Positions 11,800 to 41,574 of a stretch of DNA of 64,000 nt are shown piece after piece. Where the stretch lies: NCBI GenBank assembly GCA_905182575.1, contig CAJJCA010000011.1:1-64000 (forward strand), read 5' to 3'. The position numbers and the translations under genes were made by a program. The notes beneath the pieces were generated by a model, which was given only the letters and a program-made list of their open reading frames with translations, had not been told where the DNA came from and did no database searches. Source of the DNA: an uncultured Flavobacteriaceae bacterium. GTDB taxonomy: Bacteria; Bacteroidota; Bacteroidia; Flavobacteriales; Flavobacteriaceae. How positions within the stretch are numbered: the stretch's first letter is position 1; each line of letters opens with the position of its first letter.

Positions 11800-13757
11800 A
11801 TGAGAAATTTACTACTACTTTACACGATTCTGTTTGCAACAATACTTAAGGCTCAAGAGCCTGTGACCTGGGTGACGGGGTTTGAGAAAGTATCAAACAC
11901 CGAATATGTTTTGAGTTTTGAGGCGTCAATTATCGAAAATTGGCACCTCTATGCGCTCGATTTACCAGAAGATGGTCCATTGCCAACAGAATTTGTTTTT
12001 AAAAATGAAGGGGTTAGCTTATGAATTGGTCGGGGCGATCACAGCGAGTGAAAGCATCACTGAATTTGATCCTATTTTTGAAATGGAGCTTTCTTATTTT
12101 GATAAAAAAGTATCCTTCCGTCAACGAATCCGATTGCTTAAACCCGATACCAGTCAAATTACGGGAGAAATCAATTACCAAGCCTGTGATGATAAAGTCT
12201 GTATTTTTAGGGAAGAATCTTTTGATTTTAATCTGTCCTCCGATATAAAAACCCATTGCAGAAAAAACATACACGCGGCAAGTAAATTAAAATCAGAAAA
12301 ATTAAAGATTAACTTTAAAGACAAATCGCTACTCGATCAAAACACGAATAAGGGAGCGGGGAGTGGTTATTTTAATTTGTTCTTATTGGGTTTTCTTGGT
12401 GGAATTATTGCTTTGCTCACTCCCTGTGTTTTCCCCATGATTCCGCTCACGGTTTCTTTTTTCTTAAAACAAGCGACTAGAAAACAAGGAGTGATCAGAG
12501 CGGTTCTTTATGGATTCTTTATATTGATTATCTATTTGATTTTAAGTTTGCCCTTCCATTTTCTCGACGCGGTAGATCCACAAATATTAAATAATATAGC
12601 GACGAATATCGTCTTAAACGTCGTCTTCTTTTTGGTGTTTATCTTTTTCGCTTTTTCCTTTTTTGGATATTACGAATTAACCTTACCCAGTGGATGGGGC
12701 AATCGGTCGGACACAGCAGCATCAGGTGGTGTTGTCTTGGGAATCTTTTTTATGGCACTCACTTTGGCAATCGTTTCGTTTTCTTGCACGGGTCCAATTT
12801 TAGGGTCATTACTTGCAAGTTCTTTGTCTTCTGACGCGGGGGCGATGCAACTGACAGTTGGGATGGGTGGTTTTGGCGCAGCATTGGCTTTGCCATTTGC
12901 CTTATTTGCCGTTTTCCCCAATGCACTCCAATCGATTCCTAAATCGGGGGGATGGATGACCAAAATCAAAGTGATTTTAGGCTTTCTAGAATTGGCACTG
13001 GCTTTAAAATTCCTTTCGAATGCTGACTTGGTTGGACATTGGGGACTTTTAAAAAGAGAAATATTTATAGGCATTTGGTTAATCATTTCCCTATTGCTAT
13101 TTCTTTATTTGATGGGTTGGCTTAGGTTTCCGCATGACGCTAAAGGAGAAAAAATTAAACCCATTCAAAGAATACTGGCTGTTTTGGCTTTAATTTTTTC
13201 GGTTTATCTCGGTTCAGGATTAGGGAAGGATCAAAAGGGACAATTGTCCTTACTTAGTGGTTTTCCACCTCCAGTTTTTTACAGTATCTATGAATTAGAA
13301 AGCGATTGTCCTTTGGCTTTAAATTGCTTTAAGGATTTTGAAGCAGGACAGCAATATGCCTTAAAAACTAACAAACCCATATTGCTTGATTTTACAGGTT
13401 GGGCATGTGTGAATTGCCGAAAAATGGAAGAAAATGTTTGGTCGAAAGGAGAGGTTTATCGAATGCTCAAAGATGAATTCATCATCATTTCTCTATACAT
13501 CGATGACCGAACGGAGTTGGCCTGAAACCTATCAATTTGATTTCCAATATCCCAATGGAAGGATCAAGACCATCAATACCATAGGGGAGAAGTGGGCGAC
13601 ATTTCAAAGCTTAAATTTTGAGAGTGCCTCTCAACCTTTTTATGTCCTAATGAGTCCGGACAATGTTTTGCTCAATCAGCCCATTCAATATACCGACAAG
13701 GTGACCTATGAAAACTGGTTAAAGCAAGGATTACAGAAGTTTAAAACCCTAAAGTAG
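11800..13757 (+). CDS. dsbD: Thiol:disulfide interchange protein DsbD-like, frame interrupted twice
   Basis: This membrane protein carries electrons from cytoplasmic thioredoxin to the periplasm. It begins with a signal peptide (MRNLLLLYTILFATILKAQ), then a DsbD-alpha/DsbC-like domain with the cysteine pair in ACDDKVCIF, eight or so membrane segments including TPCVFPMIPLTVSFF and SFSCTGPILG, and a C-terminal thioredoxin domain with WACVNCRKME. Two +1 breaks split it: near 12010-12016 (GGGG for GGG restores NEGLAYELVG) and at 13519-13520 (GG for G restores DDRTELPETYQF). All three segments are well conserved, so a complete protein of about 650 residues is likely encoded in the true sequence. 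Confidence 0.88.
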
Positions 13758-14521: not shown

Positions 14522-15250
14522 TTACAATTCTTTGTAAACTTCTTCAAAAGGAACGCGAAAACGCTCGCCATAAACCCCTTCAGGTTTTCTGATGCCACAA
14601 CCAATGATCATGCTGATTTCTGCGCCAGCTGGAAGTTTAAGTAGTTTTTTCACCTGTTTGGAATCAAATCCCTCCATGGGGCAGGTGTCATAACCATGGC
14701 CGGCCATACTGACCATGAAATTTTGAGCGGCGAGTGCAGCACTTTTGTGACCTACGACGCGTAAATCGCTTGCGTTGACTTCCCGGTAGGTTGTTTTGGA
14801 TAGCCCTTTAATTCCCATTACTAATTTGTTCAAAAATCCACGAAATGGATTTCCTCCTTTGTATAATTGGGGGATAATCTCTTGATAGTAACCCAACGCT
14901 TTCTTTTGAGTATCGGGATCGACAATGTTCTTTTTGAGGAATCCTTTTTTTATGTACTCAATGTTGGCTGCTACCCTTTGTTGCCAAAGATCTCTCCTGA
15001 CGACAACTATAACCAATTGTTGCGCAGTTCTTGCAGCGGGTTGGTTGAAGCATGTTTTTGCAACAAGTTTACATTTTTCTTCGGAGGTGATGTGATGAAA
15101 TTCCCACAATTGCAGGTTGCTACTGGAAGGAGCCAGGTGGGCTTGCTCAAGACAATTCTTGACAGTTCCTGTAATTACTTTTTCCTTGTCATCGAAAATC
15201 CTAACGGATCTTCTGTATACAATGGCTTCACTTACTTTTTTTTCTGACAT
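14522..15250 (-). CDS. Nitroreductase family protein
   Basis: It is an FMN-dependent oxidoreductase of the nitroreductase fold, 242 residues, uninterrupted. The N-terminal IVYRRSVRIFDD is the FMN-phosphate contact (RRSxR), followed by QAHLAPSSSNLQLWEFHHI, also typical of FMN binding, and the late MIIGCGIRKPEG. Substrate cannot be inferred; members reduce nitroaromatics, quinones or enones. It overlaps the stop of the upstream aldehyde dehydrogenase by one base, so the two are likely co-transcribed. Confidence 0.85.
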   Translation of the reverse strand: MSEKKVSEAIVYRRSVRIFDDKEKVITGTVKNCLEQAHLAPSSSNLQLWEFHHITSEEKCKLVAKTCFNQPAARTAQQLVIVVVRRDLWQQRVAANIEYIKKGFLKKNIVDPDTQKKALGYYQEIIPQLYKGGNPFRGFLNKLVMGIKGLSKTTYREVNASDLRVVGHKSAALAAQNFMVSMAGHGYDTCPMEGFDSKQVKKLLKLPAGAEISMIIGCGIRKPEGVYGERFRVPFEEVYKEL

Positions 15251-16645
15251 TAAAGATTTTTAATTAAAAATTTTAGAAAGGATAATGACTTGGGGTAGGG
15301 GGCATAGCGACCAGGGATATCAAACCAAAAGCTGCGTTTTACGACAGGCTTTTTATGTGTAAATAACGCTAAGCTGTGTTTTCCGTGATAAGCGCCCATT
15401 CCGCTGTTGCCAATCCCGCCAAAAGGAAGATTATCATTGGCAAAATGGATGATAGAATCATTGGCGACTCCGCCGCCAAACGAATACTTGCTAAACAAGC
15501 TGTTGATGAATTTATTCTTTTTTGAAAACACATAAAACGCCAAAGGCCGCTCGCGATTTTGAAGGATTTCATGCAAATGCTGTTCTGATTCATAGCTCAC
15601 TATGGGAAGGATAGGTCCAAAAACTTCCTCTTTCATAAGCGGACTGTCTAGCTCCGGTTCATCAACAATTGTTGGGCCAAAGTAAAGGTTGTCTTCTTCT
15701 ACATTACCACCGAAAACAATGTTTTGGCTATGAAGATAATCTTTCAAACGGTTCAAATGTTTTTCATGAATGATCCTACCGTAATCCGCAGATAGGGATT
15801 GATCTTCCCCATAGGCCTTTTGGATTTCTTTTATGATTTGTTGGGTAAGCTCAGCTTTAATTTTTTTATCCACCAGAAGGAAGTCAGGCGCAATACAAGT
15901 CTGCCCACAATTGAGGAATTTTCCCCAAACAATTCTTTTTGCGGTCATCTTAATCGGTGCACTTGCATCGACAATACATGGGCTTTTTCCTCCCAACTCC
16001 AAAGTAGTGGGCGTTAAGTGTTACAGCTGCTGCTTTTGCAACAATTTTTCCGATAGAAGTGCTTCCAGTAAAAAAGATATAATCCCAACGTTTTTTCAAT
16101 AAGGCCGTCGCCATTAAAACATTTCCTTCCAGAACGGTTACATGTTCTGGTTCAAAAACTTCAGCGATGATTTCATTGATTATTTTGGCGGTGTTTGGTG
16201 CAAATTCAGAAGGTTTTACAACCACAGTATTTCCTGCAGCAACAGCACCTACCAATGGGGTGATGGCCAGTTGAAAAGGATAATTCCATGGACTGATAAG
16301 TAACGTTTTACCAAAAGGCTCAGGAATAATATAATCACGAGAAGGAAAGTTTAATAAACTACTTTGGACACGTTGCGGCCGGTTCCAACTGGGCAATAGT
16401 CGGATCATTTTTCTTATTTCCTTTTCTACAAAAATTGTCTCAGAAGTCATGGACTCGAAGCTAGATTTTCTAAGGTCTTTAAAAAGGGCTTGGTGAATCT
16501 CTTTTTCCTTTTGAATAATTGTTTTGAGTAACTTTTTAAGTTTTTCAACCCGGAAAGCACTGGACAAAGTTATTTGGGAAGAAAAAAACACAGCTTGTTT
16601 CTTGTGTATTAAATCGACGGTATTTTCTATGTTGATTTCTTCCAT
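15250..16645 (-). CDS. Aldehyde dehydrogenase (ALDH3-like), frame interrupted once
   Basis: This NAD(P)-dependent aldehyde dehydrogenase of about 465 residues is close to the coniferyl/fatty aldehyde (class 3) group. Visible are LLISPWNYPFQL, AGNTVVVKPSEFAPNT, FFTGSTSIGKI, the catalytic glutamate in LELGGKSP and the nucleophilic cysteine in NCGQTCIAPDF, plus NLPFGGIGNSGMGAYHG near the end. The frame shifts by +1 near 16014-16017: removing one A from ACTTAACG on the coding strand gives VTLTPTTLELGGKSP. Both halves are strongly conserved, so sequence error is more likely than decay. Confidence 0.88.
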
Positions 16646-16857: not shown

Positions 16858-18535
16858 ATGGAGCTTAATAAATTCAGTAAAAGAGTTACGCAAGATACCA
16901 CACAGCCTGCTGCGCAAGCGATGTTACATGCAATCGGAATGACCGATGAGGACTTTAAAAAACCTTTGATTGGAATTGCAAGTACAGGCTATGAGGGGAA
17001 TCCTTGTAACATGCACCTGAATGATCTTTCGGTTCATGTGAAAGCTGGTATAGCCCCTCATGATATGTTGGGTTTAATTTTTAATACTATTGGAGTTAGT
17101 GATGGAATTTCCATGGGAACTCCTGGAATGCGATTTTCGCTGCCTTCAAGAGACATTATTGCGGATTCGATTGAAACTGTGGTTCAGGCCATGTCCTACG
17201 ATGGAGTTGTTACGGTAGTGGGCTGTGACAAAAATATGCCAGGTGCATTAATTGCGATGCTTCGTCTGAATCGTCCTTCCATATTAGTTTACGGAGGGAC
17301 TATTGCTGCTGGTTGTCACAAAGACAAAGAGCTTGATGTTGTATCGGCTTTCGAAGCATGGGGAGAAAAAGTAGCCGGTGTTATTGACGAAAAAGAATAT
17401 AAAGAGGTTATTCGTAACGCATGCCCTGGAGCAGGAGCTTGCGGTGGAATGTACACAGCAAACACTATGGCTTCTGCTATAGAAGTACTTGGGATGGCAT
17501 TGCCATACAATTCGTCAAACCCTGCTGTAAGTGACCAGAAAATAGAAGAATGTAAGGCTTTGGGGCCTGCGATGAAAAACCTTTTGGAAAAGGACATCAA
17601 ACCCCTTGATATTGTTACAAAAAAATCATTGGAAAACGCATTGCGCTTGATCACAGTATTGGGAGGGTCTACAAATGCAGTATTGCATTTTCTGGCCATA
17701 GCCAAAGCAGCTGACATTGATTTAACCATTGATGATTTTCAAAGAATAAGTGATTCGACTCCATTTCTTAGCTGACTTAAAGCCAAGTGGAAAATACTTA
17801 ATGAAAGACCTTCATAATATCGGAGGAGTTCCAGCAGTATTGAAGTTTATGCTTGAGAATGATATGCTACATGGCGATTGTTTAACTGTTACAGGTAAGA
17901 CCCTTGCTGAGAATTTGGCATCGGTACCGAGCTTAAAAGATAATCAAGATTTGTTTAGACCTATTGAAAGACCAATAAAAAATAGTGGACATATAAGAAT
18001 TTTAAAAGGGAATTTAGCTACCGGAGGCTCGGTTGCTAAAATAACAGGTAAGGAAGGTTTACGTTTTGTTGGTCCTGCCAGAGTTTTCAATGGAGAATAT
18101 GACGCTAATGACGGAATTCGTGCAGGAAAAGTAAAGAAAGGCGATGTGGTCGTCATTCGTTATGAAGGTCCAAAAGGAGGCCCAGGGATGCCAGAAATGT
18201 TGAAACCTACTGCTGCAATTATGGGTGCTGGTCTTGGAAAAGATGTCGCCCTTATTACGGATGGTAGATTTTCAGGAGGAACTCACGGATTTGTCGTAGG
18301 ACACATTGTTCCTGAAGCCCAAGAAGGAGGTTCGATCGGACTTTTGGAAGACGGGGATGTTATCACGATTGATGCCGAAACCAATACTTTGAGTGTTGAT
18401 TTGTCTGATGCTGAGATTGAAACTAGGAAAACCAAATGGGTACAACCCGCATATAAATTTACTAAGGGAGTATTATTTAAATACATTAAAAGTGTTGCTA
18501 CAGCTTCAGAAGGTTGTGTAACTGATACCGAATAA
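16858..18535 (+). CDS. ilvD: Dihydroxy-acid dehydratase, frame interrupted once
   Basis: It dehydrates the dihydroxy acids in valine and isoleucine synthesis using an Fe-S cluster. The cluster cysteines are in [17 protein letters not shown] and [16 protein letters not shown]; late motifs include [12 protein letters not shown] and [16 protein letters not shown] +1 break at about 17767-17772 separates ...DSTPFL from [11 protein letters not shown]: the sequence reads CTT-AGC-TGA where CTT-GCT (or CTA-GCT) is expected. The full protein would be about 558 residues. It heads the ilvD-B-N-C cluster, and the 3-base gap to ilvB argues for one transcript. Confidence 0.93.
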
Positions 18536-18537
18536 AA

Positions 18538-20268
18538 ATGAAAACAACGGAGAATAAAATTTCTGATAACCCAACGAAGGGAATCAAAATAAGCGGAGCC
18601 GAAGCAGTTATCCGCTGTCTTTTGGCAGAAGGGGTTGACTTGATTTACGGTTATCCTGGGGGAGCAATTATGCCCATCTACGATGAATTGTATAAGTTTC
18701 AAGAGGAGCTTCAACATGTTTTAACGAGACACGAACAAGGAGCAACTCATGCGGCTCAAGGATTTGCTCGAACTTCAGGTAAAGTGGGAGTTGCCATGGC
18801 TACTTCTGGCCCTGGTGCAACCAACTTGGTCACCGGAATTGCAGATGCTCAAATAGATTCTACACCGATGGTTTGTATCACGGGACAAGTAGGATCTCAT
18901 TTATTGGGTTCTGACGCTTTTCAAGAAACTGACATCATTGGTATTTCAACGCCAGTGACCAAATGGAATTGCCAAATAACGAAAGCAAGCGAAATTCCAT
19001 CGGTTATGGCTAAGGCATTTTACATCGCGCGTTCAGGCCGTCCAGGACCAGTTTTGATAGACATCACAAAAGACGCTCAGTTTGATACTTTTGATTTTTC
19101 TTATGAAAAATGCACTGGAATAAGAAGTTATAAACCTGTTCCAGAAATTGAACCGACTTCTAATGTAATACCTGCTGAAGCAATTAATAATGCTAAAAGA
19201 CCTTTTATTATATGGGGACAAGGAGTTATTCTTGGAAATGCTGAACAAGAGTTTAAAGATTTTGTTGAGAAATCTGGTATTCCTGCTGCATGGACCATTC
19301 TTGGACTTTCTGCTTTGCCAACGGCACATCCACTCAATGTAGGAATGGTCGGAATGCATGGGAATTATGGACCAAACATGCTCACCAACGAATGTGATTT
19401 GTTAATCGCCATCGGGATGCGTTTTGATGATCGAGTAACTGGAGATCTTAATACTTATGCAAAGCAAGCCAAAGTCATTCATTTTGAAATAGACCCTGCT
19501 GAGGTAAATAAAAATGTAAAAGCAGACATTCCAGTAATGGGAAGTTGTAAAGACAGCTTGGCTGCAATTTTATCTTTGATAAAAAACAATACCCATGAAA
19601 AATGGATCAATCGCTTTGATGAATATATGAAAATAAAGTGGAAAAGGTTATTGACAAAGACCTGAATCCGACAAAAGAAGGATTGACCATGGGAGAGGCC
19701 ATAATGGCAATAAACAAACATACCAAAGGGGATGCTGTGATCGTAACTGATGTAGGGCAACACCAAATGGTTGCCTGTCGATATGCAGAATTTGTTCGGT
19801 CTAAGAGTAACGTGACTTCTGGAGGTCTTGGAACAATGGGCTTTGCCCTTCCCTGCAGCAATAGGTGCTAAAATGGGAGCTCCTGAAAGAGAGGTCGTTG
19901 CCGTGATTGGTGATGGAGGTTATCAGATGACGATTCAAGAATTGGGAACCATTTTTCAAACCCAAACTGCAGTAAAAATTGTTGTTTTAAACAATGATTT
20001 CCTCGGAATGGTAAGACAATGGCAACAGATGTTTTTTGAAAAAAGATATGCTTCCACTGAAATGGTAAACCCTAATTTTGTGGCCATTGCAAAAGGCTAT
20101 CATTTGGAGGCTAAAAAAGTTGATAAAAGAGAAGATCTTGATGCTGCTGTTGCGGAAATGATCGCTTCAGATAAACCTTATTTTTTAGAAATATGTGTTG
20201 AGAAAGAAGCCAATGTATTCCCAATGATTCCAGCTGGCGCATCAGTCTCAGAAATACGTCTTAATTAA
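18538..20268 (+). CDS. ilvB: Acetolactate synthase large subunit, frame interrupted twice
   Basis: This TPP enzyme condenses two pyruvates, or pyruvate and 2-oxobutyrate. The N-terminal [15 protein letters not shown] and [15 protein letters not shown] hold the cofactor-activating glutamate; DDRVTGD is in the FAD/middle domain; and [12 protein letters not shown] with [13 protein letters not shown] binds TPP-Mg. The frame changes at about 19629-19631 (-1; a base is missing after DEYM before [11 protein letters not shown]) and at 19851-19853 (+1; CCC for CC restores [12 protein letters not shown]). The two shifts cancel, so both ends share one frame. About 576 residues are expected. Confidence 0.93.
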
Positions 20269-20275
20269 TTATATT

Positions 20276-20809
20276 GTGAAAAACAACAACACTTACACCA
20301 TATCGATCTATTCTGAAAACAATGTCGGTTTGTTAAACCGAATTTCAGCTATATTTTTAAAACGACACATTAATATAGAAAGCTTTTCAACTTCTCTTTC
20401 AGAGATTAAGAATGTTTTCCGCTTTGTTATTGTCGTTGAATTAGAAGAGGAAAAGGTGAAAAAACTCATCCAGCAAATTGAAAAACAGGTTGATGTTATA
20501 AAGGCTTATTACCATACTGATGAGGAAACGATTTTTCAGGAATCAGCATTGTTTAAAGTTCAATCCAGATCACTTTTTGAAGAACGACACATCCAAAACG
20601 TAATTAAGGACAGCCATGCAAATATTGTTGTGGTTACTCCCGAGTTTTTTGTCATCGAAAAAACAGGCTTTCGTGAAGAAACAGAAAAACTACGCAATGA
20701 TTTAGCTCCTTTTGGACTGCTTCAGTTTGTTCGTTCGGGAAGAATTTCGGTAACCAAATCTAAAATGGGAATCTCAGATATTTTGAATACTTTTAAAAAA
20801 GATAATTAA
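20276..20809 (+). CDS. ilvN: Acetolactate synthase small (regulatory) subunit
   Basis: It is the ACT-domain regulatory partner of IlvB that confers valine feedback control. The N-terminal ACT domain reads YTISIYSENNVGLLNRISAI (family: xxVxNxxGVLxRxxxxF), followed by a second, C-terminal domain; 177 residues in total. It starts with GTG 7 bases after the ilvB stop and is uninterrupted. Position and size make the call firm. Confidence 0.92.
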   Translation: MKNNNTYTISIYSENNVGLLNRISAIFLKRHINIESFSTSLSEIKNVFRFVIVVELEEEKVKKLIQQIEKQVDVIKAYYHTDEETIFQESALFKVQSRSLFEERHIQNVIKDSHANIVVVTPEFFVIEKTGFREETEKLRNDLAPFGLLQFVRSGRISVTKSKMGISDILNTFKKDN

Positions 20810-20828: not shown

Positions 20829-22304
20829 ATGACGAATTATTTCAATCAACTTTCACTAAGAGAACAACTACATCAACTGGCTCAATGCCGTTTTATGGAT
20901 CCTTCTGAATTCGAGAACGGTATCGAAGCCCTAAAAGGTAAAAAAATTGTAATTGTTGGATGCGGAGCTCAGGGATTAAACCAGGGGTTAAACATGCGTG
21001 ACTCAGGACTTGACATCAGTTATACCCTTCGTCAAGGGGCAATTGATCAAAAAAGAGCTTCTTACCAAAACGCAGTAGACAATAAGTTTTCTGTTGGAAC
21101 CTATGAAGAAATGATTCCTAGCGCAGATCTTGTGATCAATTTAACGCCAGACAAAAATCATACTCCAGTGGTTAAAGCAATTGTTCCTTTAATGAAGCAA
21201 GGGGCTACACTTTCTTATTCCCATGGATTTAATATCGTTGAGGAAGGAATGACTATTAGGGAGGATTTGACCGTAATCATGGTTGCACCCAAATGTCCTG
21301 GTTCTGAAGTAAGAGAAGAATATTTAAGAGGTTTTGGAGTACCCACATTAATCGCTGTTCATCCAGAGAATGATCCTCAGGATCAAGGGTTCGAATATGC
21401 AAAAGCTTATGCTGTAGCAACGGGAGGTCATCGTGCAGGTGTTTTAGAATCTTCTTTTGTAGCTGAAGTTAAGTCAGATTTAATGGGAGAACAAACCATT
21501 CTTTGTGGTGTTCTTCAAACAGGCTCAATTCTTTCTTTTGACAAAATGATTGAAAAAGGAATAGATCCTACTTATGCTGCTAAATTAATCCAATATGGTT
21601 GGGAAACTATCACCGAAGCACTAAAACACGGTGGTATCACAAACATGATGGATCGCCTTTCTAACCCTGCTAAAATCAAGGCTTTCGAACTTTCGGAAGA
21701 GTTAAAACAAATACTTACTCCGTTATTTCAGAAGCACATGGATGATATTATGTCAGGACACTTTTCTAAAACCATGATGGAAGATTGGGCCAATGATGAT
21801 AAAAACCTATTGACTTGGAGAGCCGCTACTGGCCAAACTGCTTTCGAAAAGACAGTAGTTACAGAAAAAGAAATATCAGATCAGGAATATTTTGATCACG
21901 GGGTATTGATGGTTGCTTTTGTTCGCGCTGGAGTTGAATTGGCTTTTGACACGATGGTAGCTGCTGGGATTAAAGAAGAGTCAGCATATTATGAGTCTTT
22001 GCACGAAACACCATTAATTGCGAATACAATTGCAAGAAAAAAACTTTTTGAAATGAACCGAGTCATTTCTGATACTGCCGAATATGGCTGTTATCTTTTC
22101 GATCATGCTGCAAAGCCGCTTTTAGAAGACTTTATGAAGGGCATTGATACTGACGTTATTGGTACTGCTTTTGCTGAAGGAAAAGGAAATGGTGCTGATA
22201 ATCGTGACTTAATTGATGTTAACGAAATTATTCGTTACCATCCAGTTGAGATGATTGGTTATGAATTGAGAGAGTCGATGACTGACATGAAAAAAATAAT
22301 ATAA
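20829..22304 (+). CDS. ilvC: Ketol-acid reductoisomerase (class II, long form)
   Basis: It isomerises and reduces acetolactate or acetohydroxybutyrate with NADPH and Mg. At 491 residues it is the long, E. coli-like class II enzyme with a duplicated C-terminal knotted domain. Seen are the Rossmann loop [34 protein letters not shown], and the metal-ligand segments [15 protein letters not shown]. It follows ilvN by 19 bases. Threonine deaminase, which often accompanies ilvC in related genomes, is not next to it. Confidence 0.95.
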
Positions 22305-22409: not shown

Positions 22410-24009
22410 ATGACAATGAAAATGAATCAAGTTCCTAAACAATTTCAAGTTACTCCTATCCATTCAAAGGATTACTTGGTTAACGGAGAAATCAAATCAT
22501 GGAAAGGACCTTCTTCTGAAGTTTTTTCAACTATTCAGACAGAAAACGAGTCGGGAGAAATGGTTCCTACATTTCTGGGAACAATTCCTGACATGGAGTC
22601 CGAAACTGCTTTGGAAGCATTAGATGCCGCAAATAAAGCATTTGATCGTGGTAAAGGACTTTGGCCGACCATGAAAGTTAAAGAACGTTTGACCTGTTTA
22701 GAAAAATTTGCAGGTAAAATGAAAGAGCATCGCGAAGAGGTCGTAAAACTTTTAATGTGGGAAATCGGGAAATCCTTAGGGGACTCACAAAAGGAATTTG
22801 ATCGTACCATTGATTACATCTATGATACCGTAGAGGCTTATAAAAAACTTGATCATCGCAGTGCAAAGTTTGAAAAAGAAGGAGGAATCCATGCACATAT
22901 TCGTCGTGGTCCATTAGGAGTAGTGTTATGTTTGGGTCCTTATAACTATCCACTGAATGAGACTTTTTGTCTATTAATTCCTGCCATTATTATGGGGAAT
23001 ACAGCCATATTTAAACCTGCAAAACACGGTGTATTACTAATTACACCATTGTTGAAAGCTTTCCAAGAAAGTTTTCCAGCCTGGAGTTGTAAATATTGTT
23101 TTTGGTAGAGGTAGAAAAATAGCTCAGCCGATTATGAAAACTGGAGTTATAGACGTTTTGGCTCTAATTGGACATAGTACTTCAGCAGTTGCTTTACAAG
23201 ATGAGCATCCTAGAAAAAATAAATTGAGATTGGTTTTAGGCTTGGAGGCTAAGAACCCGGGAATTATTCTTCCTGATGCTGATTTAGATCACACCATCAA
23301 AGAATGCATTTCAGGAACATTATCATTTAACGGACAACGGTGTACTGCACTGAAAGTGCTCTATGTACACGAATCTTTAGTTGATGAATTTAACACTAAG
23401 TTTTCTGCCGCTGTTGATGCTTTGAAATATGGTTTGCCATGGGAAGAAGGTTCATTTTTAACTCCACTTCCTGAACCTTCAAAACCAGCCTATATAAAAG
23501 GACTTATTGATGATGCGGTTTCAAAAGGCGCCAAAGTCATGAACAAAAAGGGCGGGCAACAGTCCGTAAATTACTCTTATCCTGCAGTGCTTTATCCCGT
23601 TGACGAGAGCATGAATGTATATAAAGAAGAACAATTTGGTCCTGTAATACCGATCATTGCTTATAAAGATATTAACGAGCCTTTGGATGCGATGGCAGCT
23701 TCAGACTACGGTCAGCAAGTGAGTCTTTTCGGAAGAGATGTAAGAAAAATCGGACCACTGATCGATATTTTATCGAACTTAGTTTGTCGTGTGAATCTAA
23801 ACAGTGCTTGCCAGAGAGGCCCTGATGTTTATCCATTTGCAGGAAGAAAGAACTCTGCTGTTGGAACCTTAAGTGTTTTTGATGCACTGCGTTCTTTTTC
23901 CATAAGAACTTTTGTTGCTTCTAAGGACAACCCTTACAACAATGAGATTTTGGAAAACCTATTAAATTCAAAGGAATCTAATTTTGTTTCAACAGATTAT
24001 TTGTTGTAA
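22410..24009 (+). CDS. gapN: NADP-dependent glyceraldehyde-3-phosphate dehydrogenase-like (GapN), frame interrupted once
   Basis: This aldehyde dehydrogenase superfamily enzyme probably oxidises glyceraldehyde-3-phosphate to 3-phosphoglycerate, giving NADPH without ATP. Motifs are [30 protein letters not shown], the glutamate segment [10 protein letters not shown] and the catalytic cysteine in [10 protein letters not shown]; the C-terminus has [17 protein letters not shown], typical of GapN. A +1 break near 23076-23082 separates LLKAFQESF from [14 protein letters not shown]; one extra C explains it. About 532 residues are expected. The exact substrate is inferred from the GapN-like sequence, not shown. 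It lies 105 bases after ilvC. Confidence 0.82.
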
Positions 24010-32611: not shown

Positions 32612-33676
32612 TTATTTTATTTGACTGGCTAAATAATCTCCAACTTCACTGGTTTTATAGGCTTTATCATTCCCTTCAACCAAGTCTTCTGTGACAATGC
32701 CTTCTTCGAGCGATTGATCGACAATTTTTCGAATCAAGGCCCCTTCTTCATGTAAACCAAATGCCATTTCAAACATCATTGCTGCAGACAAAACTGTGGC
32801 CAGTGGATTGGCGATGTCTTTACCCGTAGCTTGAGGAAAAGATCCGTGAATGGGCTCGAATAGACCAATTTTAGATCCAACAGATGCAGAGGGCATCAAA
32901 CCCATTGAACCTGAGATAACTGAAGCTTCGTCGGTGAGAATGTCACCAAAAAGGTTTTCAGTAATCAATACGTCATAACTGTTTGGCCATTGCACCAAAC
33001 GCATGGCAACGGCATCGACAAATTCATAAGCAACTTCAACTTCTGGATAATCCTTTTCCATCAATTGAACAGTTTCTCTCCACAGTCGAGAACTTTCCAA
33101 AACGTTTGCCTTGTCTACACAGCATAATTTTTTAGATCGGGTCATGGCCAATTCAAAACCTTTTTTAGCCAACCGTTGTATTTCACTTCGGGTATAAGTA
33201 CAAGTGTCAAAGGCGGTGTTGCCATCATCTTTTCTTCCTCGTTCTCCAAAATAAATTCCACCCGTTAATTCTCTTAAAAAAACCAAATCTGTTCCCTCAA
33301 TTCGTTCTCTTTTTAAGGGAGACTTGTCAATTAATGACGGGAAAGTAAAAGTCGGGCGTACATTAGCAAATAGCCCTAATTTTTGACGCATTTTTAAAAG
33401 TCCTTGTTCGGGTCTTACTTTTGCAGAAGGGTCATTGTCAAAACGTGGATGTCCGATGGCGCCAAATAAAACAGCGTCAGAGGCCAAACATACTTCATGA
33501 GTACTGTCTGGATAAGGTTCTCCCACCGCATCAATAGCTACAGCACCAGTCAATGCAGGCATCCATTCGATTTGATGATCAAATTTTTTAGCAATTGCAT
33601 CGGATACTTTAACTGCTTGATCGATTACTTCTGGACCAATACCGTCTCCGGCCAATAAGGCAATTTTTAATTTCAT
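32612..33676 (-). CDS. leuB: 3-isopropylmalate dehydrogenase
   Basis: It oxidises and decarboxylates 3-isopropylmalate (and 3-methylmalate in the citramalate route) with NAD+. The 354-residue protein shows LLAGDGIGPEVIDQ, LTGGIYFGERGRKDDG, and the metal/NAD signature NLFGDILTDEASVISGSMGLMPSASVG. It is the last gene of the leu operon, 10 bases after the cimA-like gene. Uninterrupted. Confidence 0.95.
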   Translation of the reverse strand: MKLKIALLAGDGIGPEVIDQAVKVSDAIAKKFDHQIEWMPALTGAVAIDAVGEPYPDSTHEVCLASDAVLFGAIGHPRFDNDPSAKVRPEQGLLKMRQKLGLFANVRPTFTFPSLIDKSPLKRERIEGTDLVFLRELTGGIYFGERGRKDDGNTAFDTCTYTRSEIQRLAKKGFELAMTRSKKLCCVDKANVLESSRLWRETVQLMEKDYPEVEVAYEFVDAVAMRLVQWPNSYDVLITENLFGDILTDEASVISGSMGLMPSASVGSKIGLFEPIHGSFPQATGKDIANPLATVLSAAMMFEMAFGLHEEGALIRKIVDQSLEEGIVTEDLVEGNDKAYKTSEVGDYLASQIK

Positions 33677-33686
33677 ATGTCGTTAA

Positions 33687-35207
33687 TTAATTTAATTTGA
33701 CGTTTAGCATTTTTTCAGTTGCCTTGATGGCAGCTACGGTTTGATCAGAATCTAAACCACGTGTGGTGAACTCCTTAGTACTACTTTTCCAGGTAACAAA
33801 AGTTTCACACAAAGCATCCGAATTACTTCCCGGTGGAATACGAACCGCGTAGTCAACCAAAAGAGGTAATTCTAATTTTTTCTTTTTATAAATTATTTTT
33901 AAGGCCCTCATAAAAGCATCAAATTGTCCATCTCCTGAGGCACTTGCTTCCATGATTTCTCCATCGATTTCTAGAGAGATTGTCGTGTTGGGTTGAAGTC
34001 CCTTGGAATGTGTAAGTGCATAGGATTTAACCAATACTCTTTCTTCCATGGCACTATTGAGAACGTCCGATATTATATAAGGGAGATCCTCTGTTGTGAC
34101 CCTTTCTTTTTTATCTCCCAACTCAATGATGCGTTGGGTGACCTTTTTTACTTCATCATCATTAAGTGTAACGCCTAATTTTTGAAGGTTTTTCTGAATG
34201 TTCGCTTTACCAGAGGTTTTTCCTAGAGCATATTCTCTCGTTCTACCAAAACGTTCTGGTAATAGGTTGTTGAAATAGAGGTTCTTCTTCTTGTCACCGT
34301 CGGCGTGGATTCCAGCAGTTTGAGTGAAAACATTTTCACCCACGATAGGTTTGTTCGCTGGGACGATAAAACCTGTAAAAGTAGAAACCAACTTGCTCAC
34401 CTTATGCAGTGCGGTTTCATTAATGTTTATTTTAATTTCGGGTAAAAAATCTTTGATGTTGGCCACCGCACTCGCCATTGGTGTATTTCCAGCGCGCTCT
34501 CCCATTCCATTGATGGTGAGATGCAATCCATGACATCCAGCTCTCAAGGCCTCCATACTATTGGCGACACTTAGGTCATAATCATTGTGACCATGAAAAT
34601 CGAAATGTAATTCGGGAAACTTAGAAACGATTTCAGAAACAAATTTAAAAGTCTCCAAATGAGTGAGGATCCCTAAAGTATCGGGTAGCAATACCCTTTT
34701 GATTGGTTGTGTGGCAATGAAAGATAAATATTCGTCGACATAGGCCCTGGAGTTTCGCATACCATTGCTCCAATCTTCCAAATAAACATTGGTGGTAATG
34801 CCTTCTCTTTCTGCTTCTAAAACATTGTCCTCAATTTCTTTGAAATGTTGATCAGGTGTTTTTTTAAGCTGATGTGTCAGGTGGTTTAAAGACCCTTTTG
34901 TTAATAAATTCTGAACTTTTGCACCAGAATCTTTTAACCAATTTAAGGAGGTTCCTTGGTCTACAAAAGTTAAGATTTCAATGCGATCCAACAGTGATTT
35001 GCTTTTGGCCCAAGCAGCAATTTCTTTTACCGAATTCAATTCTCCCTCAGAGACTCTTGCCGAGGCAATCTCAATGCGATCTACTTTTAACTCTTCTAAT
35101 AATAACTTAGAAAGTGTTAGTTTTTCAGCTACAGAAAACGACACCCCTGAGGTTTGTTCGCCATCCCTAAGCGTGGTGTCCATGATTTCAATAGTTCTTT
35201 TTTTCAT
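33687..35207 (-). CDS. cimA: Citramalate synthase of the Leptospira type (LeuA-like)
   Basis: It belongs to the isopropylmalate/citramalate synthase family: [16 protein letters not shown] at the start, FHGHNDYDLSVANSMEA for the metal site, TQTAGIHADGDKKKNL in the linker and a C-terminal LeuA allosteric domain ending VAAIKATEKMLN; 506 residues. As I recall the Leptospira interrogans citramalate synthase, this protein matches it closely (for example VDRIEIASARVSEGEL, NLLTKGSLNHL and NVYLEDWSNG). Its pyruvate-pocket residues Leu81, Leu104 and Tyr144 correspond here, with a constant offset of 2, to Leu79, Leu102 and Tyr142. That supports acetyl-CoA plus pyruvate to citramalate. Automated annotation would call it 2-isopropylmalate synthase. 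A separate leuA starts this operon. Confidence 0.8.
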   Translation of the reverse strand: MKKRTIEIMDTTLRDGEQTSGVSFSVAEKLTLSKLLLEELKVDRIEIASARVSEGELNSVKEIAAWAKSKSLLDRIEILTFVDQGTSLNWLKDSGAKVQNLLTKGSLNHLTHQLKKTPDQHFKEIEDNVLEAEREGITTNVYLEDWSNGMRNSRAYVDEYLSFIATQPIKRVLLPDTLGILTHLETFKFVSEIVSKFPELHFDFHGHNDYDLSVANSMEALRAGCHGLHLTINGMGERAGNTPMASAVANIKDFLPEIKININETALHKVSKLVSTFTGFIVPANKPIVGENVFTQTAGIHADGDKKKNLYFNNLLPERFGRTREYALGKTSGKANIQKNLQKLGVTLNDDEVKKVTQRIIELGDKKERVTTEDLPYIISDVLNSAMEERVLVKSYALTHSKGLQPNTTISLEIDGEIMEASASGDGQFDAFMRALKIIYKKKKLELPLLVDYAVRIPPGSNSDALCETFVTWKSSTKEFTTRGLDSDQTVAAIKATEKMLNVKLN

Positions 35208-35229: not shown

Positions 35230-35827
35230 TTAGAGTGGAGTATTTTTAGAAAATTCTTTGATTTCTTCTTTTACAGCTAAGAAGATAGTCGATATCGTCA
35301 AAACCATTCAACATGTTTTCTTTTTTATAAGGGTTGATGTCAAAATTTTCAGATTCTCCAGTAGTGTCAAGAGTAACCTTTTGATTTTCTAGATCAATCG
35401 TAATTGAGGTTTTTGGATCAGCATTGACCGCTTCAAACATTTTGGCTGAAAATTCTGCAGATACTTGAACTGGTAAAACACCAATGTTTAAACAATTATT
35501 TCTGAAAATATCCGCAAAGAAACTTGAAATAACGCATCGAAAACCATAATCATAGATCGCCCAAGCAGCATGTTCTCTTGAGGATCCGGAGCCAAAGTTT
35601 TTTTCTCCTAATAAAATTTGTCCACTGAACTTGGCGTTATTGAGAACAAAATCTTCTTTAGGACTGTCATCATTATTGTATCTCCAGTCACGAAATAAGT
35701 TGTCTCCAAAACCAATGCGCTCTGTCGCTTTTAAAAATCGAGCAGGAATGATTTGATCAGTATCTACGTTTTCGATTGGAAGTGGAACTGCTGTACTTGT
35801 TAGTACCTTAAATTTATCGTAAGCCAT
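35230..35827 (-). CDS. leuD: 3-isopropylmalate dehydratase small subunit, frame interrupted near its end
   Basis: It is the swivelling small subunit of isopropylmalate isomerase. The N-terminal [28 protein letters not shown] and [31 protein letters not shown] are diagnostic. The ORF track ends it at 35246 with a basic tail, but a +1 shift at about 35274-35282 (CTT-AGC-TGT where CTT-GCT-GTA is expected) restores the family end [17 protein letters not shown] and moves the stop to 35230. It follows leuC by 3 bases. Confidence 0.92.
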
Positions 35828-35830
35828 TTA

Positions 35831-37228
35831 TTAATTTATTAACGTTCTTGGATCAGTTACTTTTCCTGTTACTGCAGCCGCTGCTGCCATGATTGGACTT
35901 GCCAATAGGGTTCTAGAGCCAGGTCCTTGTCGTCCTTCAAAATTTCTGTTTGATGTGCTAACAGCATATTTTCCAGTAGGAACTTTGTCATCATTCATTG
36001 CCAAACAAGCTGAGCATCCTGGTTCGCGAAGTTCAAAGCCAGATTCCTTAAGGATATCTAATAAACCTTCTTCTTCAATTGCCTTTTCTACTTTATGCGA
36101 TCCAGGAACCAACCAAGCGGTTACATTGGATGCTTTCTTTCGACCTTTAACGATTTCTGTAAAAGCCCTAAAATCTTCAATTCTACCGTTGGTACAACTT
36201 CCTAAAAACACAAAGTCAATTTCTTTACCGATCATTGTATCCCCTTCTTCATATCCCATGTAGTTCAATGACTTTTTGTAAGTGGCTGCTCCACCGTCGA
36301 TGGATTCTGCCATTGGGATGCCTTTCGAAATTCCAATCCCCATTCCAGGGTTTGTTCCGTAAGTAATCATCGGTTCTATAGAATTCCCATCGAAAACAAG
36401 TTCTTGGTCAAACACAGCATCCGCATCGGTCTTAAGATCTGACCAATATTCCATTGCTTTGTCCCAGTTTTCACCCTTAGGCGTAAACTCTCTGTCTTTT
36501 ATGTATTCAAATGTTTTTTCGTCTGGAGCAATCATTCCACCTCTGGCACCCATTTCGATACTGAGGTTGCAGACGGTCATTCTTCCTTCCATACTCATTT
36601 CATTAAAAACTTCTCCAGCATACTCCACAAAATAACCTGTGGCACCTGAGGTAGATAATTGTGAAATAATGAAAAGCGCCACATCTTTTGGGCCAACTCC
36701 TTTTTCAAGAGATCCCTTGATGGTGATGCGCATTTTTTTTGGTTTGGGTTGCAAAATACATTGCGTCGATAAAACCATTTCTACTTCCGAAGTTCCAATT
36801 CCAAAAGCAATCGCACCAAAAGCACCATGAGTTGAAGTGTGTGAATCTCCACATACGATCGTTGCACCTGGGAGGGTAATTCCATATTCAGGCCCTACCA
36901 CGTGTACAATACCGTTTTTTTCGTGACCCAATCCCCAATAAGAAATACCATGCGCTGTCGCATTTTTTTCTAAGGCGTCCAATTGTTTTGCGGACAAAGG
37001 ATCTGCAACGGGCAGGTGTTGATTGATGGTTGGCGTGTTGTGATCCGCTGTTGCGAAAGTACGCTCAGGATACAATACGCTAATGTTTCTGTTGTCTAAT
37101 CCCAAAAAAGCTACAGGACTGGTAACCTCGTGTACCATGTGGCGATCGATGAACAAGACATCGGGTCCATCTTTTATTTGTTGGACCACGTGGGAATCCC
37201 AAACTTTATCAAAAAGTGTTTTTTTCAT
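35831..37228 (-). CDS. leuC: 3-isopropylmalate dehydratase large subunit
   Basis: It is the aconitase-family Fe-S subunit interconverting 2- and 3-isopropylmalate; it also processes citramalate. The cluster cysteines are in [12 protein letters not shown] and [34 protein letters not shown] is the family signature. It is 465 residues and uninterrupted, and lies between leuA (21 bases) and leuD in the operon. Confidence 0.95.
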
Positions 37229-37249: not shown

Positions 37250-38402
37250 TTAGAATCCGCAGGATTCAATAATTTCAGGAATGTCTTCATCACTGACCTC
37301 TTTTTGTTGATCAGCAACTTTTAAAAACTGTTCATATACTTTATCTAGTTGAAGTTTATCTAATTCAAAACCAATATTTTTGGCGCGGTAGGCCAATGCT
37401 GCTCTTCCGCTTCTGGCAGTTAAAACAATCGCAGACTCGGTTACTCCGACATCTAGGGGTCATTATTTCATAAGTTTCTCTTCTCTTGATCACGCCGTCT
37501 TGATGAATGCCTGAACTGTGTGCAAAAGCATTGGCGCCAACCACTGCTTTGTTGGGCTGAACTGGCATACCCATGCTGTCAGAAACCAATTGGCTTGTTG
37601 AGTATAGCAATTTGGAATTAATTCGAGTGTCTAAATTTAAACTGTCGTGTTGCTTCATAATCATTACAACTTCCTCTAAAGAAGTGTTTCCAGCGCGCTC
37701 CCCAATTCCATTGATGGTACATTCAATTTGTCTTGCACCATTAATGATTCCAGCAATCGAATTTGCAGTCGCCATCCCCAAGTCATTGTGGCAATGACAT
37801 GAAAGGACGGCTTTGTCAATTCCAGTAACGTTTTCTTTTAAATATTTAATTTTTGCACCATATTCTTCTGGCAAACAATAGCCAGTGGTGTCTGGAATAT
37901 TTAGAACAGTTGCCCCCGCCTTAATGACAGCTTCGCATACCCTGGCAAGAAACTCGTTATCAGTTCGTCCGGCATCTTCCGCATAAAACTCTACATCCTC
38001 AACAAAAGTTTTGGCATAGCTCACTGCAGCTACTGCACGTTCGATGATTTTTTCTCTATCAGAATTGAATTTGTATTTGATGTGGGAGTCTGAAGTTCCA
38101 ATTCCTGTGTGAATTCGAGAAAGTTTGGCGTGCTTAAGCGCTTCTGCTGCAACCTCAATATCTTTCTTCACAGCTCGAGTCAATCCACAAACTCTTGCAT
38201 TTTTAATCAGCTTTGAAATTTGTACCACAGAATCGAAGTCACCAGGACTTGAAACTGGAAATCCTGCCTCTAGTATGTCAACACCCAAAAAATCAAGGCG
38301 TTCTGCAATGATAAGTTTGTTTTTGGTGTCTAATTTACAACCTGGCACTTGTTCTCCATCTCTTAAGGTAGTGTCGAAAATTTGGACGTATTCGTTGTTC
38401 AT
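37250..38402 (-). CDS. leuA: 2-isopropylmalate synthase, frame interrupted once
   Basis: It condenses acetyl-CoA with 2-oxoisovalerate, the entry to leucine. Motifs: [17 protein letters not shown], the metal site [15 protein letters not shown] and [15 protein letters not shown]. The track ORF ends at 37365 with an unrelated tail. At about 37455 a +1 shift at CCT-AGA-TGT gives [20 protein letters not shown] and then a family-like end down to ESCGF with a stop at 37250. With one base removed, one residue of the usual TPEDVG is missing, so two missing bases is the alternative. About 384 residues, without the regulatory domain that the cimA-like gene has. Confidence 0.9.
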
Positions 38403-38548: not shown

Positions 38549-40115
38549 ATGATTAATGAACAAAAAGACAACTTATTTCAGCTGATAAAATCGCTCACAA
38601 AATCTGAAAAGCGTCAATTTAAACTTTACGTAGGCCGAATGGGGTCTAACAACGACGCAAAATTCCTGAGCCTTTTTAATCTTTTGGACAAGTTAGAGAA
38701 GTATAGTGAAACCGCAATCCTTAAAAAAGGAATTGTTTCTAAGCAACAAGTTGTCTAATTTGAAAGCCCATTTGTTCAAACAGATATTAATTAGTTTACG
38801 GCTCAACCCAATTCATCAAAACATTCGAATCCAGATCAGAGAGCAAATGGATTTTGCTGCCATTTTATATCAAAAAGGATTGTATAAATTGAGTCTAAAG
38901 ATCTTAGACAAAGCAAAAATGCTTGCCCTTAAAAACGAAGAAAAATATTCTGCTTTTGATATTGTGGAGTTTGAAAAGTTAATAGAGTCTCAATACATCA
39001 CAAGAAGTCTAACCAACCGGGCGCAAGAATTGATTAAGGAAGCTGATTTCCTTAGAACGCAAAACGACTTGGCCAGTAAGCTTTCTAATTTATCCCTTTT
39101 ACTTTATGAGCGTTTGATCAAAACAGGCTATGCCAAAAGTGATCAGGAGTTTAGAGAGATCACTAAGTTTTTTTATGAAAAAATGCCGACAATGGAGGTT
39201 GAAAAACTTGGGTTTAGAGAAAAACTTTGGTACTACAAAGCACATGTCTGGTATAGTTTTTTGGTTCAAGATTTTTTATCATCCTTTAAATATGCCTCTA
39301 AGTGGGTTACTATGTTTGATGAAAAGCCAGAAATGATTTTGATTCATCCCGTTTTTTATCTCAAAGGGAATAATTTTTTAATGGAGTCCTTGGCCCTTAT
39401 CAAGTATCCTGAGAAGTTTAAGATTACCCTTCGAAATATGCTTGGAAAAATCAATTCTTTAGAGTTTTCTAAGAATGAAAACCTTGCAGGCTTAAGCTTC
39501 TTGTATTATTACTTTATTGGGCATACTGAATTTCTTCAAGGAAATTTTGAAGGAGAACTTGCGATACTTCCTGAAGTGACAAAAGGGATTGAAGATTTTA
39601 GAAATCAGATTGATCCGCACCACATCATGATGTTTTATTATAAAATTGCTTGTCTGTATTTTGGCTCAGGAGACAATGAAAATTGCATCGTTTATCTGAA
39701 CAAAATTATAAGTGACAAACACCTGAAAATGCGAGAAGATCTTCTATGCTTTACTAGAATTTTAAATGTCGTAGCGCATTATGAAGCAGGATTTGATTAT
39801 CATTTAGAAAACCATTTGAGAGAAACCTATAAGTATCTGATTAAAATGGACGATTTGCATGAAGTTCAAAAAGCAATGATGCGATTTGTCAGGAGCTTGG
39901 GTGATATTTATCCGCACGAATTGAAAGCCGCTTTTGTTAAATTACACAAGGAGTTAAAGCAATATGAAGAAGATCCTTACGAACGAAGGGCCTTTTTATA
40001 TCTAGACATTTTGTCTTGGTTGGAAAGTAAAATCGAAAACCGCTCAATTGGAGAGATTATTAGAGAAAAAGCAAAAGTAATTAATCGGAAAGAACGAAAT
40101 TCCATTCCGGTTTAG
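38549..40115 (+). CDS. Conserved flavobacterial helical-repeat protein of unknown function, frame interrupted once
   Basis: The reconstructed product has about 521 residues. It begins MINEQKDNLFQLIKSLTKSEKRQFKLYVGR and continues with helical, TPR-like segments (for example YQKGLYKLSLKILDKAKMLALKNEEKY). I know such proteins as conserved hypotheticals in Flavobacteriaceae but know no function. A +1 break at about 38748-38753 (CAA-GTT-GTC) joins KKGIVSKQQ to SNLKAHLFKQILISLRL. No signal peptide or membrane segment is seen. It is divergent from leuA and overlaps the convergent RluA-type gene by 35 bases. Confidence 0.8.
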
Positions 40116-40739
40116 AAGGGGGAGGAGCAATGATTTCTATCCTTTCCTTCGAAATAGGATGACTTACCGTCAGTGACCTTGCGTGAAGATCAATACTCCC
40201 GTCCGGATTGCTTCTTTTAGCGCCGTATTTTAAATCTCCTTTGATGGGATGTCCCAATGCGCAGAGCTGACTTCTTATTTGGTGGTGACGGCCTGTTTCT
40301 AATGTGATTTCAAGTAACAAATAACGGTCTAATTCTTTTCTTTTGTTATAATGAAGAATTGCTTTTTTAGTATTGGTTTGCTCCTCATCGAATGCAAAAG
40401 ACTTATTCATTTTTTGATTTCTCCTGAGCCAATGAGTCAAAGTCCCTTTTTTAGATTTGAAGGTTTTGTTGACAAGCGCCCAATAGACTTTTTGAACATT
40501 TCATTTAATCTTTTCAGTGATTTTGAAGTTTTTGTAAAAATGATAACTCCGCTAGTTGGTCTATCTAACCTGTGAGTTATTCCTAAAAATACATTTCCTG
40601 GTTTATTGTATTTTTTTTTGATGTAGGCTTTGACTTTATCCGCTAACGGGACATCGCCTGTTTTATCTCCCTGAACCAAATCTCCTGAAGGTTTGTTAAT
40701 TGCAATAAGATGATTGTCTTCGAAAAGAATGTTGAGCAA
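40081..40739 (-). CDS. RluA-family pseudouridine synthase, frame interrupted once
   Basis: It isomerises uridine in rRNA or tRNA. The N-terminal part has INKPSGDLVQ and the catalytic aspartate in GITHRLDRPTSGVIIFTKT; the C-terminal part has LLEITLETGRHHQIRSQLCALGHPIKGDLKYGAKR. A -1 break at about 40484-40490 separates NEMFKKS from YWALVNKTFKSKKGTLTHW; one missing base explains it. About 219 residues, without an S4 domain. The modified position cannot be inferred. Its 5' end is 14 bases after the end of panB. Confidence 0.87.
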
Positions 40740-40753
40740 AATAGGAGGTTTTT

Positions 40754-41574
40754 TTAATATTGTTCTTTGTCGTTCGGAAAGTCATTACTTTTAACATCCA
40801 AAGGTGAAGGCTTGAATAGCTTGACTGATTTTGGTATTTAGATCTAAATAACGTCTCAAAAAGCGTGGACTGAATTCTGTACTCATTCCCAACATGTCAT
40901 GAAGCACCAAAACCTGACCATCCACTTCATTCCCCGCGCCGATTCCAATGATTGGAATGTTGACTTCTCTTGCCACTTTGCAGCGAGTTTAGCAGGAATT
41001 TTTTCTAAAACAATACCAAAACAACCAATTTCTTCAAGCATCTTTGAATCTTCGACGAGTTGTTTCGCTTCACTTTCTTTTTTGGCTCTTACGGTGTAAG
41101 TTCCAAATTTATAGATCGACTGTGGCGTAAGTCCCAAATGTCCCATCACCGGAATTCCAGCCTGTAGAATTCTTACGATAGATTCTTTAATTTGACTTCC
41201 GCCTTCAAGTTTTACTGCATGCGCTCCTGCTTCTTTCATGATCCGTATTGCAGATCGAAGCGCTTCTTTAGAATCAGATTGATAAGATCCAAAAGGTAAA
41301 TCGACAACGACTAAAGCGCGCTCAACCCCCCGTATGACACCAGAGGCGTGGTAAATCATTTGATCTAAAGTTATGGGTAGCGTCGTTTCATGACCTGCCA
41401 TCACATTGGAAGCCGAATCGCCAACCAATATAATGTCAATTCCAGCCTTGTCTACAATACCCGCTAGGGTGAAGTCATAGGCAGTAAGCATTGCGATTTT
41501 TTCGCCTCTCTGCTTCATCTTTCAGACAAACTATTTGTCGTTATACGGGTATAATCTTTGGCCACTTTTGACAT
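40754..41574 (-). CDS. panB: 3-methyl-2-oxobutanoate hydroxymethyltransferase, frame interrupted three times
   Basis: First step of pantothenate synthesis: it adds a hydroxymethyl group from methylene-THF to 2-oxoisovalerate (from the ilv pathway). Signatures: [48 protein letters not shown] and [23 protein letters not shown]. Three breaks are needed: near 41515-41524 (-1) joins the true start [18 protein letters not shown] to MKQRGEKI; near 40976-40980 (-1) joins AKLAAK to VAREVNIP; near 40798 (+1) restores the tail [14 protein letters not shown] and the stop at 40754. That density in 820 bases of an otherwise perfect family sequence points to base-calling errors. Confidence 0.9.

Follow-up and report, generated by a model that had tools for sequence, protein, structure and literature searches.

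A putative Leptospira-type citramalate synthase in place of threonine deaminase in a marine member of the Flavobacteriaceae

Within a 64,000-nucleotide stretch of DNA from an uncultured Flavobacteriaceae bacterium (here called the window), the gene at positions 33687 to 35207 on the minus strand very probably encodes a Leptospira-type (R)-citramalate synthase (CimA) that feeds isoleucine synthesis via leuCD and leuB, replacing threonine deaminase. The original prediction of such an enzyme is supported by family assignment, phylogeny, pocket and regulatory residues, operon context, the absence of ilvA, and co-occurrence across genomes, with the genome evidence providing the main and stronger support, outweighing the residues. 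Substrate, stereochemistry, inhibition by isoleucine, and action of leuCD and leuB on both C5 and C7 intermediates are all predictions. In the proposed pathway, CimA would condense acetyl-CoA with pyruvate to form (R)-citramalate, LeuCD would convert citramalate to 3-methylmalate, and LeuB would oxidize and decarboxylate 3-methylmalate to 2-oxobutyrate, which the ilvBNCD products would convert toward isoleucine. Isoleucine would probably be sensed by the C-terminal domain of CimA, a single leuC would be common to the leucine and isoleucine pathways, and CimA would take the place of threonine deaminase as the 2-oxobutyrate source in this lineage. The enzyme and the pathway are already known from Leptospira and others; in the citramalate route of Aquifex and other organisms, the later steps use the enzymes of leucine synthesis (PMC3917532), the same pathway logic as proposed here.

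The open reading frame occupies exactly these positions, starts with ATG, and encodes 506 amino acids with no internal stop. A TIM-barrel catalytic part (approximately residues 5 to 324), a linker with subdomains, and an isoleucine-type regulatory domain (approximately residues 393 to 503) reproduce the full domain layout of the L. interrogans enzyme (LiCMS; catalytic structures 3BLE, 3BLF, and 3BLI and regulatory structures 3F6G and 3F6H). The best match in a phmmer search of PDB sequences was 3BLE, the LiCMS catalytic domain (E value of 9.4e-122, query residues 5 to 324), followed by homocitrate synthase (1.3e-43) and 2-isopropylmalate synthase (IPMS) (1.2e-39), and the C terminus matched 3F6G, the LiCMS regulatory domain with isoleucine (6.4e-26). 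When an AlphaFold model of moderate confidence (pLDDT of 71.9, with residues 288 to 335 of low confidence) was used in a fold search, the three LiCMS catalytic structures ranked first at 55 to 56% identity, and the isoleucine-bound regulatory domain (3F6G/3F6H) was matched at 46% identity. The near end-to-end alignment with L. interrogans CimA that had been claimed is thus borne out for both halves of the protein, at 55% identity for the catalytic part and 46% for the isoleucine-binding domain.

The top NCBIfam model for the protein was NF042433 (CimA), at 680 bits versus 313 bits for the best IPMS model. The curated NF042433 cutoff of 950 bits was not reached by this protein or in any of the Bacteroidota genomes searched, so this threshold excludes the whole Bacteroidota branch and says nothing about function; it seems to be tuned to Leptospira and to be genus specific rather than functional. 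By its sequence, the protein is classed as a putative LiCMS-type synthase lying outside the exact NF042433 equivalog model. Scores also fell below the cutoffs of the LeuA models (270 versus 598.7 bits for TIGR00973 and 288 versus 532 bits for NF002086) and of the TIGR00977 citramalate synthase model (142 versus 450 bits). A maximum-likelihood tree placed the window protein and 3BLE in one 17-row clade with support of 100/100, and long LeuA, short LeuA, and TIGR00977-like citramalate synthases all fell outside it. The superfamily also includes homocitrate and methylthioalkylmalate synthases, and a related acyltransferase for another 2-oxo acid, for example, a homocitrate or 2-ethylmalate synthase, could be imagined at this locus. 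However, homocitrate synthases scored far lower (153 versus 410 bits) and the linkage to leuCDB and ilv genes suits citramalate, making this the least probable of the alternatives, with almost no weight.

Three residues, Leu79, Leu102, and Tyr142, had been put forward as evidence for a pyruvate pocket. In the sequence alignment with LiCMS and LeuA on which the pocket assignment is based, these residues align without gaps to L81, L104, and Y144 of LiCMS, and all three were invariant in 86 of 86 Flavobacteriaceae sequences compared. All named LiCMS pocket residues are present in the window protein, and we take their roles to be those that the original prediction describes for LiCMS. As pocket evidence, the trio is weaker than was first claimed, which independent genome evidence offsets: the alignment to the LiCMS positions stands, but Y142 does not discriminate, being shared with the short Flavobacteriaceae LeuA. 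Tyr142 was rejected as evidence for a citramalate synthase because Tyr also occupies this column in LeuA from the same type of operon (other IPMS enzymes have Ser or Phe). At the L102 column, the local LeuA has Gly and long LeuA has Phe, and the L79 column is variable in LeuA.

Judged from the alignment, better discriminants than Y142 are N100, L102, a three-residue insert (W146-S147-N148), and the isoleucine pocket residues of the regulatory domain. Asn100 is replaced by His in every LeuA compared, the insert is LiCMS-like and absent from the LeuA sequences compared, and these two features divide LiCMS-type proteins from LeuA cleanly; N100, L102, the insert, and F81 are all LiCMS-like and different in every LeuA compared. 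LeuA proteins in the short form (3EEG from Cytophaga hutchinsonii and the leuA product of this operon) and the long form (3RMJ) share the fold, the Zn-binding His pair, and the catalytic Arg/Asp/Glu with the window protein, in which the Zn and catalytic residues R14, D15, E144, T177, H205, and H207 are retained. Identity to LeuA is approximately 31%, however, and LeuA has His for N100, Gly or Phe for L102, and no WSN insert. The LeuA hallmarks, a conserved HT(F/G) strand that holds the His of the substrate site and a Ser/Ala-rich strand before E-D, are missing, and at these strands the window protein has N100-L101-L102 and Y142-L143-E144-D145-W146.

Nine residues, which we take to form the isoleucine site of LiCMS and whose LiCMS numbering agrees with the 3F6G sequence, were compared in the regulatory domain. 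The window protein matches LiCMS at five of them (D, L, Y, I, and Q) and departs from it at four, with F, S, C, and S in place of Y430, T464, V468, and P493; the Y/F, T/S, and V/C substitutions are rated as similar. LeuA has V, S, G, T, and I/V at five of these columns, and long LeuA is unlike LiCMS at most of them. These residues bear on the possibility that the gene encodes a second, feedback-regulated IPMS that adds leucine control beside an unregulated short leuA, as would fit a member of the same superfamily in the same operon as leuA, given that true regulated LeuA carries a C-terminal regulatory domain and that such a domain is missing from the LeuA encoded here. We regard this as highly unlikely: the window protein branches with LiCMS rather than LeuA, N100 replaces the IPMS His, a bulky L102 is found where the local LeuA has Gly, the regulatory residues are of the LiCMS isoleucine type, the distribution of cimA complements that of ilvA, and an adjoining second leuB would be left unexplained.

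The putative citramalate synthase gene lies in a co-directional cluster on the minus strand, comprising a short leuA without a regulatory domain (37259 to 38402), leuC, encoding the isomerase large subunit (35831 to 37228; single copy in the genome), leuD, encoding the isopropylmalate/citramalate isomerase small subunit (35246 to 35827), cimA, and leuB (32612 to 33676; 354 amino acids and the sole leuB found in this genome). The leuC, leuD, and leuB products exceeded the cutoffs of TIGR00170, TIGR00171, and TIGR00169, respectively. An operon with a dedicated leuA, leuC, leuD, and leuB around cimA had been claimed, and this arrangement was found, but the leuA frame is broken near 37455 in the assembly (frames 37452 to 38402 and 37259 to 37459). 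No Rfam match to an RNA leader or riboswitch was found near the operons.

The broken leuA leaves cimA as the only intact family member in this assembly, which raises the possibility of a bifunctional synthase using both pyruvate and 2-oxoisovalerate, especially in the window genome. A congener represented by a 99%-complete metagenome-assembled genome (G018; completeness is only 71% for the window genome) argues against this. Its CimA is 98% identical to that of the window, and its leuA is intact at 384 amino acids, as it is in all other carriers searched. Breaks of this kind also affect ilvD, ilvB, and other window genes that are whole in the congener, with cimA unaffected. The break in leuA is therefore taken to be an assembly or sequencing error, and the frameshifts of the window are likely to be indel errors of this assembly rather than gene decay. 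With invariant, LiCMS-like pocket residues as well, there is little reason to favor a bifunctional enzyme, and its probability is slight. A true leuA pseudogene was considered and is unlikely on the same grounds. Other window reading frames split by frameshifts and whole in the congener are those at 22410 to 24009 and 15250 to 16645, and genes at 11918 to 13757, 40081 to 40739, and 40883 to 41518 (DsbD-like thiol-disulfide interchange, pseudouridine synthase-like, and panB-like) also seem split or shortened.

The remaining genes for isoleucine synthesis from 2-oxobutyrate lie on the plus strand, in the order ilvD (16858 to 18535), ilvB (18538 to 20268), ilvN, encoding the acetolactate synthase small subunit (20276 to 20809), and ilvC (20829 to 22304). 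Both ilvD and ilvB are split by frameshifts here and intact in the congener, at 558 and 576 amino acids. The downstream neighbor of ilvC is an aldehyde dehydrogenase gene (22410 onwards), not ilvA, which directly follows ilvC in some of the relatives that have it (for example, G010). Relatives with ilvA give a match of approximately 1e-180, and searches for THD1-type threonine deaminase gave no E value below 9e-19 for the window genome or below 4e-18 for the congener. In the congener, contig 14 contains ilvDBNC, all intact and in the same arrangement as in the window, with no ilvA, and contig 10 contains an intact leuA-leuC-leuD-cimA-leuB operon.

A broader sample of 121 Flavobacteriaceae genomes, of which 120 had a completeness of 90% or more, was scored for cimA (more than 600 bits) and for THD1-type ilvA above its cutoff, together with LeuA and IlvC. 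Among the 90 genomes with both LeuA and IlvC, 31 carried cimA and ilvA, 22 carried cimA only, 35 carried ilvA only, and 2 carried neither. Under independence, 9.9 genomes with neither gene would be expected (Fisher's P value of 9e-5, which is too small since the genomes are related). None of the 121 genomes encoded cimA without LeuA or IlvC. The two genomes with neither gene (G099 and G107) have complete ilvDBNC and leuACDB, showing that some further 2-oxobutyrate source exists in the family, and the absence of ilvA alone is therefore no proof of a citramalate route. A cystathionine lyase/synthase-like gene is located near the leu cluster in G107.

Gene order around cimA was highly conserved, with leuC-leuD-cimA-leuB found in 61 of 61 loci that had 3 kb or more of flank in both directions. 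At these loci, leuA was inside the cluster in only 8 cases, and ilvCNB often followed the cluster in convergent orientation. All 10 inspected genomes without cimA had the order leuA-leuC-leuD-leuB. Two leuB genes were present in 40 of 53 cimA carriers versus 0 of 37 noncarriers (P value of 2e-14 before allowing for kinship), and leuC never exceeded one copy in the 89 genomes in which it was detected. One leuB of two-copy carriers adjoins cimA and the other adjoins leuA; in ten such genomes checked by coordinates, leuA directly adjoined its leuB, and leuC adjoined cimA. Most Flavobacteriaceae carriers thus share only leuC between the two pathways and have leuB twice, one beside each synthase, unlike the Aquifex-type route with shared LeuCDB.

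The two LeuB proteins form separate clades (split support of 100/99), one linked to cimA (LeuB1; approximately 351 to 357 amino acids) and one linked to leuA (LeuB2; approximately 372 amino acids), with several fixed residue differences between them, including at loci L141 to L160 and in other two-copy genomes. The window LeuB falls in the cimA-linked clade and, in contrast to two-leuB carriers, is the only LeuB type in its lineage. In seven genomes, including that of the window and all approximately 1.7 to 2.2 Mb in size, leuA lies within the cassette and a lone LeuB must cover both pathways; for the window, LeuB1 would oxidize both methylmalate and isopropylmalate. The two-copy genomes are most simply explained if leuCD and leuB arrived as part of the cassette, making the former leuCD copies between leuA and leuB2 dispensable but not leuB2 itself. 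Retention of leuB2 in this situation suggests that one LeuB enzyme cannot fully substitute for the other. We give an even chance to a fuller scheme in which leuCD-cimA-leuB is an isoleucine cassette of the Flavobacteriaceae with a LeuB paralogue specialized for 3-methylmalate, leuA-leuB2 serves leucine with only LeuCD in common, and in small-genome lineages like that of the window leuA joined the cassette, leuB2 was lost, and a single isoleucine-type LeuB serves both.

A full-text literature search of an incomplete collection found no description of this gene, its cassette, or a second leuB in Flavobacteriaceae, and the cassette, most often equipped with a second leuB of its own, seems to be undescribed, although the enzyme type is already known. 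Annotation pipelines easily name such genes as leucine enzymes, making genomes appear isoleucine auxotrophic or incomplete. If the citramalate reading is true, this marine bacterium builds isoleucine without threonine deaminase, and with cimA but no threonine deaminase in about a quarter (22 of 90) of the sampled Flavobacteriaceae genomes that are leucine prototrophic, marine community models of amino acid dependence would need to be altered. The second leuB linked to cimA also offers a natural pair for studying how a dehydrogenase splits two nearly identical substrates.

Beyond the Flavobacteriaceae, a phylum sample included 15 leuA-bearing genomes from other families of the same class, of which 2 had both cimA and ilvA, 4 had cimA only, 8 had ilvA only, and 1 had neither. 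No LiCMS-type synthase was found in the other Bacteroidota classes of this sample. At loci L123 to L125 from these classes, a TIGR00977-like citramalate synthase gene lies within a few kilobases of a long leuA. This enzyme presumably catalyzes the same reaction but belongs to a separate clade with other pocket residues, and the window protein scores 142 bits against its model versus 680 bits against the LiCMS model, making the two analogous members of different subfamilies. Adoption of the citramalate route thus seems to have involved two distinct types of synthase.
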